From a bacterium (GTDB lineage: Bacteria > Vulcanimicrobiota > Vulcanimicrobiia > Eremiobacterales > Eremiobacteraceae), in assembly GCA_902812405.1 (NCBI GenBank), contig CADDZI010000016.1, positions 1 to 45,618 on the forward strand: DNA of 45,618 nucleotides. Direction: 5' to 3'. The notes under the pieces are model-generated. The model was not told the origin of the DNA, did no database searches, and saw only the letters and a program-made list of their open reading frames with translations. This document shows, piece by piece, positions 1,152-41,360 of this stretch. A program made the translations under genes and the position numbers. Within the stretch, counting starts at the first letter, position 1. Each line of letters starts with the position of its first letter.

Positions 1152-1257
1152 GGTTGTGTGTATCACGCGTGCGACTGGCCCCGGCCATGCCTTCGAGACT
1201 TCACGCGGCCAGGGAGCCGGCGGCCACGGCGCAAACGGTAGGCTGCAAGGAGAGTTG

Positions 1258-2955
1258 ATGGAGGACCGCTATCAGGCGCTTTTGACGGCCGTGGCGCAGG
1301 CTCTTGACCAGCGGCTGCAAGGCCTGGCCCCGGCGAGCGCGGCTGCCGGGACGCATGACGGCATACCCCGGGTTGTGCTGACACCGGCTCGCGATGCCCG
1401 CCACGGCGACTTCGCGACGCCGGTCGCCCTCGCGGCCGCCAAGATCTGGAAACGCAACCCGTTGGAGATTGCGCGCGCGCTCGCGGAGGCGGGAACGCAA
1501 GGACTGCCGGAGGTGGCGCGCATTGAGGCGGCACCGCCCGGTTTCGTCAATGTGACGATGACCGGGTCCTTTTGGAGCGGCGTGGTGCGGGAGGTTCTCG
1601 AACGGGGCGAAGATTTTGGGAAGTCCACCGCGCTGGCCTCGCTCGGGCCCGTGCTCGTCGAGTTCGTGTCGGCCAACCCAACCGGCCCGCTCGTCGTCGT
1701 GCAGGGGCGATCGAGTGCGCTGGGCTCGTCGCTCGTCGCCATGTTGCGCTTTGCCGGTGCCGAGGCCGCATCCGAAACGTACGTCAACGACGCCGGCGCT
1801 CAGCTGGACCGCTTGGCCGATTCACTCTTTGCGCGCTACGCGACGCTGCTCGGCCGCCCGACGCCCGTACCCGAGGACGGCTACCCCGGCGAGTACCTGG
1901 TCGATGTCGCGCGAGCACTTATCCAGCGCGACGGCGAGCGCTGGCTGGACGCCGACGCAAACGAGCGCCGGAGAGCTTTGGGCCGCTTTGCCCGCGATCT
2001 CATCGTCGAGCAGCAGCGGCAGGATCTCGAACGCTTCCGCGTCCGCTTCGATACCTGGGTCTCGGAAGCGACGCTCCACGAAAGCGGCGCCATTGCACGC
2101 ACGCTCGAGCAGCTGCGCGCCTCGGGACACGTCTACGAGCAGGACGGCGCGCTGTGGTTACGCGCGACAGCGTTCGGCGATGAAAAGGACAGGGTCCTCG
2201 TGCGCAGCGACGGCCGCCCGACGTACCTGGCGGCGGACGCGGCCTACCATGCGGATAAACTACGCCGCGGCTATCGTTACCTGATCGATATCTTGGGGCC
2301 CGATCACCACGGCTATATCGCGCGACTCAATGCGCTCGTCGCGGCTCTGGGTCACCCCGGGGCGCTGGAGGTGCTCATCGCGCAGCACGTGACCCTCAAG
2401 CGCGGCGAGGAGAAAGTCTCCATGAGCAAGCGGGCCGGCGAACTCGTCACGCTGCGCGAAGTCATCGAACAGGTGGGCGTCGACGCGGCACGGTTTTACT
2501 TCATCAATCGGTCGCCCGAGTCGCACCTGGTGTTCGACCTGGCCCTTGCGGTTGAGCAGTCGGCCAACAATCCCGTGTACTACGTGCAGTACGGGCACGC
2601 ACGCATCGCGTCCATCCTGCGCAAGGCGGCCGCCAGTCATGGCAGCCTCTTGGAGCGGGCGCAGGCGGGCCGGGATGTCGAGAGGCTCGGTCATGCGCGC
2701 GAAATCGCTCTCATTCGCCGGTTGGCAGACTTCGGCCGGACCGTCGCCTCTGCCGCGCAAGCCCGGGCTCCCCATCGAGTGGCCGAGTACGCCCTCGACC
2801 TGGCGGCGGGTTTCCACACCTTCTATACCGACTGCGTCGTCTTGGGGGAGGATGAGGGTCTGAGCAGCGCTCGGCTATCGCTGTGCTTGGCAACCAAGAC
2901 GGTTTTGGCGTCGGCCTTGGGCTTGCTGGGCGTCACCGCCCCAGAGCATATGTAG
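1258..2955 (+). CDS. argS: Arginyl-tRNA synthetase
   Basis: Class I synthetase that charges tRNA-Arg; 565 aa, normal for the family. The frame is open from 1150, but the ATG at 1258 is preceded by AAGGAGAG and is the credible start. The N-terminal Add1-like domain is followed by the catalytic domain (VEFVSANPTGPL at about 134-145), a YVNDAGAQ motif, the KMSKS-type loop MSKRAG at 389-394, and a C-terminal anticodon-binding domain (PVYYVQYGHARI). The HIGH signature, normally HxGH after NPTGPL, reads VVVQ here, so both histidines are missing; see findings. The stop codon lies inside a 13-bp tandem duplication that runs into a palindromic-repeat cluster. Confidence 0.95.
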   Translation: MEDRYQALLTAVAQALDQRLQGLAPASAAAGTHDGIPRVVLTPARDARHGDFATPVALAAAKIWKRNPLEIARALAEAGTQGLPEVARIEAAPPGFVNVTMTGSFWSGVVREVLERGEDFGKSTALASLGPVLVEFVSANPTGPLVVVQGRSSALGSSLVAMLRFAGAEAASETYVNDAGAQLDRLADSLFARYATLLGRPTPVPEDGYPGEYLVDVARALIQRDGERWLDADANERRRALGRFARDLIVEQQRQDLERFRVRFDTWVSEATLHESGAIARTLEQLRASGHVYEQDGALWLRATAFGDEKDRVLVRSDGRPTYLAADAAYHADKLRRGYRYLIDILGPDHHGYIARLNALVAALGHPGALEVLIAQHVTLKRGEEKVSMSKRAGELVTLREVIEQVGVDAARFYFINRSPESHLVFDLALAVEQSANNPVYYVQYGHARIASILRKAAASHGSLLERAQAGRDVERLGHAREIALIRRLADFGRTVASAAQARAPHRVAEYALDLAAGFHTFYTDCVVLGEDEGLSSARLSLCLATKTVLASALGLLGVTAPEHM

Positions 2956-2970: not shown

Positions 2971-3251
2971 GGAGCCGCTGCGCTCGCGCAGCCGACAGAG
3001 CGTGACCCCTTGGGACGGTCTACGCGGACGGGTTCTCTCGGTCGCCAAAGCGCGACCGCTACCTACGGACCCGGAAAGAAGGTCTGTAGCAGTCGGCCTT
3101 GGCCAACCGACGGAACGTCGCGCCTTGGGTTGCGTCCGCCCAGAGGCTACGTTCTCTCGGTCGCGCAAGCGCAAGCGCTACGGCATGGGGGTCGCGCAAG
3201 CGCGAGCGCTACGGGTCTTCCGGGTTGGCCGCACCGGCGCGCGACCGCTAC
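2964..3251. repeat. Cluster of palindromic intergenic elements (REP-like), about six copies
   Basis: This fills the 350-bp gene-free stretch between argS and the GNAT gene. Copies are recognisable at about 2964-3005, 3032-3062, 3086-3118 (opposite orientation, GGCC-type stem), 3151-3181, 3189-3212, plus a half element at 3238-3251. The shared layout is GTTCTCTCGG, then a self-complementary stem such as GGTCGCGC-AA-GCGCGACC, then GCTAC. Several copies here are degenerate, and weak open frames through them are by-products of the repeats. Nothing else is visible in this stretch. Confidence 0.85.
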
Positions 3252-4900: not shown

Positions 4901-4990
4901 GTTCTGTCGGTCGCGCAAGCGCGACCGCTACCGAAAACGCCACCAGCGGCACGTTCTGTCGGTCGCGCAAGCGCGACCGCTACCGAAAAC
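4901..4990. repeat. Two identical 38-bp palindromic elements
   Basis: The same 38-bp unit occurs at 4901-4938 and 4953-4990, separated by 14 bp. Each has the GTTCTGTCGG lead, the stem GGTCGCGC-AA-GCGCGACC, GCTAC and then CGAAAAC. They lie between convergent genes (membrane protein and GGDEF protein) and could form strong hairpins in both transcripts, possibly acting as bidirectional 3'-end structures. Confidence 0.92.
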
Positions 4991-14240: not shown

Positions 14241-14353
14241 GTAGCGGCCGCGCTTGCGCGGCCGACGGAATGTTATTGCTGCTCGTCCGACCACAGCCGC
14301 GCAATTCATGCAAACGTGAATCCGTCTTTCGGTCGCGCAAGCGCGACCGCTAC
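14241..14353. repeat. Two palindromic elements in opposite orientation
   Basis: A GGCCG-stem copy at 14241-14272 (GTAGCGGCCG...CCGACGGAA) faces a GGTCG-stem copy at 14324-14353. They lie between the convergent creatininase and GGDEF genes. The second copy provides the TAG stop of the GGDEF gene (minus strand CGG TAG CGG). Confidence 0.88.
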
Positions 14354-28073: not shown

Positions 28074-28166
28074 TTCCATCGGCCGCGCAAGCGCGGTCGC
28101 TACGTACAGCCTACGTACAGCCTGGGAACGTTTCCGTAGCGGTCGCGCTTGCCCGACCGACAGTAG
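28074..28166. repeat. Two palindromic elements and an 11-bp tandem duplication
   Basis: One copy at 28074-28103 (CGGCCGCGC-AA-GCGCGGTCG type stem, mixed between the two common stems) and one in opposite orientation at 28132-28166. Between them TACGTACAGCC is perfectly repeated in tandem (28101-28111, 28112-28122). Confidence 0.85.
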
Positions 28167-41164: not shown

Positions 41165-41360
41165 GTAGCGGCCGCTTTTACGTAGCGGCCGCGTTTACGC
41201 GGCCGACGGAACGTAACGCCTTGTGGAATTTTTCCAACGCGAAACGGTCTCTCGGTCGCGCACGCGCGACCGCTACGTGAGTCCTCCTCCCTGAGAATCT
41301 CTAACGCGAAATGTTCTCTCAGTCGCTCACGCGCGACGGTCGGCCAAGGCCGACCGCTAC
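41165..41360. repeat. Cluster of palindromic elements between convergent pgl and lon
   Basis: A half element at 41165-41179, a full GGCCG-stem copy at 41182-41214, a GGTCGCGC-type copy at 41246-41276 (loop AC shifted), and a composite copy at 41313-41360 with the second stem GGTCGGCC-AA-GGCCGACC. The last two copies are each preceded by a shared AACGCGAAA segment. No gene lies in 41152-41404. Confidence 0.88.

Follow-up and report, generated by a model that had tools for sequence, protein, structure and literature searches.

A HIGH-less type of arginyl-tRNA synthetase, most likely an active housekeeping enzyme, in an Eremiobacteraceae genome and in several bacterial phyla

The window analysed here (the whole stretch of 45,618 nucleotides, contig CADDZI010000016.1) carries on its forward strand a gene for an arginyl-tRNA synthetase (ArgRS), argS, at 1258..2955. 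The gene consists of 565 codons and a stop, encoding 565 amino acids; it adjoins a divergent dprA and its ATG at 1258 is preceded by AAGGAG (1247..1252, forward strand), which we read from the sequence as a ribosome-binding site. Against the NCBIfam argS profile TIGR00456 the protein scored 368.8 bits, above the curated equivalog cut-off of 261.65. Its domains follow the order PF03485 (N-terminal), PF00750 (catalytic) and PF05746 (DALR), the last of these profiles matching the DALR anticodon-binding domain at 2584..2952 (forward strand). The predicted structure (pLDDT 93.9) has a Rossmann catalytic fold, and a Foldseek search with this model gave ArgRS as the top matches, followed by CysRS and MetRS, with the Campylobacter jejuni ArgRS 3fnr as the best solved match. 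The window also contains eight copies of a short palindromic repeat (GGTCGCGCAAGCGCGACCGCTAC, up to 3 mismatches), where none would be expected by chance. Five lie downstream of argS and of an AI-2E transporter gene (3035-3062, 3154-3181, 3185-3212, 4904-4931 and 4956-4983) and the remainder at 14326-14353, 28136-28163 (reverse strand) and 41249-41276. This repeat resembles a REP element family.

The HIGH (HxGH) motif is the textbook hallmark of class I aminoacyl-tRNA synthetases. The window ArgRS lacks this signature, and its place in class I rests on fold and homology. In both the sequence and the alignments, the conserved stretch NPTGPL (1675..1692, forward strand) is followed in the place of HxGH by VVVQ, residues 146-149 (1693..1704, forward strand), giving NPTGPL-VVVQ-GRSS as compared with the usual NPTGPL-HxGH-GRGA of ArgRS; both histidines and the glycine are replaced. 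The alignment to 3fnr runs without gaps across the site (NPTGPLHIGHARGA in the window, NPTGPLVVVQGRSS in 3fnr), which confirms the claim of an earlier, sequence-only reading of this DNA that both HIGH histidines are missing. That reading had framed the change as one of two histidines and it proved to be wider: within V146-V147-V148-Q149 the third residue, normally glycine, is Val148, and residues 152, 253, 348 and 377 shift along with the motif. The KMSKS loop, which had been described as intact, is indeed present as M389-S390-K391-R392 (MSKR; 2422..2433, forward strand) in the context VSMSKR, with the second lysine, K391, retained. Three of the shifting positions are Ser152 (1711..1713), Gln253 (2014..2016), which lies on helix 234-259 of the model, and Pro348 of the G-x-D-H loop G347-P348-D349-H350 (2296..2307), all on the forward strand. 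Compared with the canonical NPTG-type ArgRS represented by 3fnr, the window protein thus shares the family, fold, NPTGPL, G-x-D-H, MSKR and anticodon domain and differs in having VVVQ for the HIGH histidines and glycine, P348 for alanine and Q253 for a hydrophobic residue.

The absence of both class I histidines could mean that this is a degraded or moonlighting ArgRS-like protein, with the real enzyme encoded elsewhere. We consider this highly improbable, as only one argS is present, also in a genome assembled as one contig (see below), dN/dS is low and the profile score exceeds the equivalog cut-off. The window's genome (2.32 Mb in 110 contigs, 96.65% complete) was searched with PF00750, PF05746, TIGR00456 and the protein itself and no second argS was found, and hence not the second canonical copy which the sequence-only reading had named as the sign of a paralogue. 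The extra weak matches in this genome were ruled out as a second argS: they are LeuRS and an unrelated protein which we take to be tRNA-dihydrouridine synthase-like. Since LeuRS, the only further class I enzyme examined, retains HVGH, the idea that HIGH was lost throughout the genome was rejected as far as LeuRS is concerned. Between the window ArgRS and its nearest relative, dN was ~0.21 and dS ~1.65 (pN 0.181, pS 0.667); the gene is intact and evolves under purifying selection, and its arginine-site and anticodon portions are conserved. VVVQ is kept despite synonymous codon changes, and because the motif is conserved through such changes we rejected an artefact, a frameshift or chance as its source; the view that the gene is not decaying is likewise borne out. 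In an alignment of 40 ArgRS (the window and 39 of 80 relative loci) N140, Y323, D327, Q376 and Y442 were among the invariant residues and E270 was present in at least 90%; we take these six residues to belong to the arginine site.

Of the 31 genomes tested, only three (G249, G326 and G396) contained a second clear argS. One genome of the window's class, G014, is assembled as one contig (3,508,363 bases), and its sole TIGR00456 match over the cut-off carries VVVQ. Vulcanimicrobium alpinus WC8-2 is described as a pure culture with a circular chromosome of 3,508,363 bases (PMC9758169), and if G014 is this strain, a cell would be growing on a HIGH-less ArgRS alone. Similarly G397, whose argS lies on a 3.8 Mb contig, has one argS, with the motif NVVN. 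Together, these data suggest that the window ArgRS is most likely an active housekeeping enzyme with a remodelled ATP site.

Some genomes with more than one match should be described separately. In G396, a 3.0 Mb contig contains two ArgRS types (L246:3812-5848 and L239/L247), a HIGH-less NVVN type and a K-type with NPNKAAHVGH. In G326, where the other argS is NVVN, a 9.5 kb contig bears an HVGH ArgRS fragment (L248, G326:C256) whose open frame starts with unrelated sequence; this contig is probably chimeric or foreign. G126 has two argS (L146 and L171), both VVVQ, and an estimated contamination of 7%, and this bin probably holds two strains or species. Lastly, three ArgRS-like sequences from the window's phylum (L153, L154 and L157, in G105, G102 and G101 respectively) carry N[VF]DD where HIGH would stand, lack MSKR and look like a non-catalytic paralogue; L153 scored 194.1 bits, below the argS cut-off, and all three genomes also hold a second ArgRS-like match.

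We read argS motifs across genomes with a DNA pattern which is neutral as to the motif and which matched 112 of the 149 genomes of the window's phylum. In the window's class the pattern matched 106 of 117 genomes, and all 106 carried [VNLAS][VIA]VQ: 85 VVVQ, 8 NVVQ, 7 LVVQ, 5 VIVQ, 1 AIVQ and 1 SAVQ (one genome giving two rows). G082, one of the 11 class genomes outside the pattern, was read separately as NPVGPLVVVQ, bringing the class genomes with a motif read to 107, all of them [VNLAS][VIA]VQ. In other families of the phylum we found NVVN in four genomes and HVGH or HAGH in others. HIGH-less "xVV[NSQ]" ArgRS also dominate three further sampled groups. The phylum to which a Rokubacteria record belongs gave 92 rows (84 of 95 genomes), of which 68 were HIGH-less, 17 HIGH-like and 7 chance matches. 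The phylum to which a KSB1 record belongs gave 74 rows (71 of 82 genomes), comprising 55 HIGH-less, 16 HIGH-like and 3 chance matches, and the class containing a Bacillota record gave 68 rows (63 of 72 genomes), comprising 64 HIGH-less, no HIGH-like and 4 chance matches. Half-altered motifs occur elsewhere, namely HxGN in Clostridia, TIAH and SVAH in Omnitrophota and TIGH in part of the KSB1 phylum.

Judged from these sequences, the HIGH-less state is a class-wide clade variant here and is also present in several phyla. The suggestion of a lineage with a changed ATP site therefore holds at the sequence level, but not as to a single lineage. The sequence-only reading had also raised a clade variant known from well-characterised active enzymes; a clade variant it is, but no characterised ArgRS with a VVVQ-type motif was found and the five solved ArgRS which were aligned (of 12 matches) all keep HxGH.

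To describe which residues change with the motif we used 202 aligned ArgRS, from which 11 sequences belonging to the other main type of ArgRS were removed along with 3 divergent paralogues, leaving 188 NPTG-type sequences (94 HIGH-less and 94 HIGH-like). Of nine sequences shorter than 450 residues, eight were dropped and L224 was kept. A Q or H occupies position 253 in 94/94 HIGH-less and 0/94 HIGH-like ArgRS. Residue 348 is P or R in all 93 readable HIGH-less sequences; in the 94 HIGH-like ones it is A (n = 88), P (n = 4) or S (n = 2). The four HIGH-like P348 cases are all Omnitrophota with TIAH or SVAH motifs, and the HVAH ArgRS L223 retains Ala348, for which reason the package of co-changes is not perfectly strict. 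Among representatives, 31 of 32 HIGH-less ArgRS have A, S or T at residue 152 (the remaining one has H) and 32 of 44 HIGH-like ArgRS have Gly there; the KMSK lysine is present in 32/32 HIGH-less vs 25/47 HIGH-like ArgRS, the 47 being the 44 plus three HVGH/HVAH rows of the Rokubacteria phylum. Within the HIGH-less motif the first residue is N, V, L, A, S or G, the third is Val with one exception (VVAN) and only N, S or Q occurs at the fourth. That place thus remains polar, whereas the first histidine is just lost.

The pattern at residue 253 raises the question of whether Gln253 or His253, on helix 234-259, directly replaces a HIGH histidine in its function. The complete separation of the two types at this residue fits such a role, as does the HVGH group of the Rokubacteria phylum, in which residue 253 is hydrophobic again. 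However, in HMMER pairwise alignments a Gln is also aligned to this position in Pyrococcus 2zue and Thermus 1iq0, which keep HMGH/HVGH, and since Gln coexists with HIGH in these enzymes, Q253 is not peculiar to HIGH loss. We therefore dropped Q253 as a proven compensation, and we regard a direct takeover as improbable.

The number of switches between the two types varies with the tree used. In a careful tree of 61 rows, from which the switch columns had been removed, the type has to change six times, with well-supported (starred) branches forcing at least three of these changes, and none of its 200 bootstrap trees gets by with only one change. A quick tree from which just the four motif columns had been removed needs two. 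In independent pairs on starred branches residue 253 tracked the motif in 3/3, where significance would need at least 6 pairs. The HVGH group of the Rokubacteria phylum is nested in the HIGH-less clade in the quick tree and, because this nesting is absent from the careful tree, we dropped the idea that the group is a reversion. One clean recombination behind this group was also considered and rejected, as segment identities show none and have no sharp breakpoint.

Constrained trees gave different answers for different parts of the protein. With a single HIGH-less clade imposed, the whole protein gave a borderline rejection (p-AU 0.0472) and the C-terminal domain a rejection (p-AU 0.0037), while the catalytic part without the switch sites did not reject it (p-AU 0.687). 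This contrast would be expected if the HIGH-less catalytic segment had arisen once and then moved between phyla by segment exchange. The catalytic columns accept the organismal grouping equally, however: the KSB1 phylum as one clade had a p-AU of 0.767, the constrained tree being 15.8 log units better, and there is no sharp breakpoint in the segment identities. We regard a single origin followed by exchange as rather unlikely. The catalytic part also did not reject a grouping of the HVGH and xVV sequences of the Rokubacteria phylum (p-AU 0.13). Most likely, several phyla acquired or switched to the HIGH-less type, and the data are compatible with both repeated change in place and exchange of short segments, either of which may have occurred.

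The HIGH histidines are reported to stabilise the transition state of activation and the motif glycine to give adenine room (PMC10485003; PMC5919687). With Val148 in the glycine's position, the site must therefore be rebuilt. ATP would still bind in the Rossmann pocket, whose adenine and ribose part would, by homology, be reshaped by Val148 and Pro348; Pro348, beside residues expected from homology to contact ribose, would be the natural partner of Val148. The pentavalent transition state would be stabilised without the HIGH histidines, candidate stabilisers being the KMSKS-loop lysine K391, the polar residue in the fourth motif position (Q in the window ArgRS, N or S in others), the backbone amides at the start of helix 147-165, Mg2+ and the bound tRNA. 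ArgRS needs bound tRNA for activation. For K391, Q149 and P348, the ATP-binding roles are putative and assigned by homology.

We are fairly confident that the window protein is the cell's working housekeeping ArgRS and that it belongs to a HIGH-less type (xVV[NSQ]) which is widespread and whose ATP site was remodelled through a set of linked changes. A broader proposal, on which we are evenly divided, is that bacterial NPTG-type ArgRS may use two interchangeable ATP sites, HIGH/Gly148/Ile-Leu253/Ala348 and xVV[NSQ]/Gln253/Pro348, which would have been switched as a package at least three times among phyla, and that the second would activate arginine without any histidine in the motif, making the HIGH histidines dispensable for catalysis in a modern full-length class I synthetase.

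The closest precedent is the swapped HIGH motif of mupirocin hyper-resistant IleRS2. Its G/AxHH motif is reported to raise mupirocin resistance by as much as 1000-fold while costing little in catalysis, to have arisen at least twice and to have reverted in Deinococcus-Thermus (PMC10485003). As described there, IleRS2 is likewise a working and widespread class I synthetase with an altered HIGH motif and an enlarged residue at the glycine position, including a case of reversion; one of its histidines has shifted to position 3 and the last stays in place (PMC10485003). The HIGH-less ArgRS motif has no histidine.

The precedent also offers a reason for the rebuilding, compatible with an active enzyme: the ATP site may have been selected to keep out a natural inhibitor resembling ATP or arginyl-adenylate, in the way that IleRS2 excludes mupirocin through its swapped motif (PMC10485003). 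ArgRS also shows an altered motif glycine, repeated change and HIGH-bearing relatives, and the NVVN and K-type HVGH ArgRS of G396 occur together as IleRS1 and IleRS2 can. IleRS2 confers mupirocin resistance; for ArgRS, HIGH-less or otherwise, we know of no ATP-site inhibitor. Most genomes tested contain one argS (a second clear copy in 3/31), and fixation across whole classes would fit ancient inheritance equally, and we consider selection by an inhibitor unlikely.

Other altered motifs can also be compared with that of the window ArgRS. The HxGN ArgRS of Clostridia and those with TIGH, TIAH or SVAH, all seen in the present analysis, are likewise short of one motif histidine; they differ in retaining the other and in having Gly or Ala third. 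AVGA mutants of LeuRS are reported to have lower activity at full length, and yet the AVGA form of the LeuRS urzyme is its most active (PMC10450160). Both histidines are absent from AVGA as from the window ArgRS, but AVGA as reported was made in the laboratory, whereas VVVQ is natural and fixed. Neither IleRS2 nor LeuRS AVGA, as described in these sources, covers a natural synthetase without any motif histidine, and in the open-access literature we found no description of an ArgRS without the HIGH histidines.

Mutating the first HIGH histidine is reported to slow activation ~1000-fold in several class I synthetases (PMC10485003). Set beside this, the present ArgRS suggest that a textbook catalytic motif is evidently not indispensable. 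A natural, full-length and apparently essential HIGH-less enzyme with HIGH-bearing relatives makes the contribution of the histidines, and what substitutes for them, directly testable, and has a bearing on the urzyme debate over early synthetases. It is also a warning that motif-based annotation or drug design which assumes HIGH will miss large bacterial groups.
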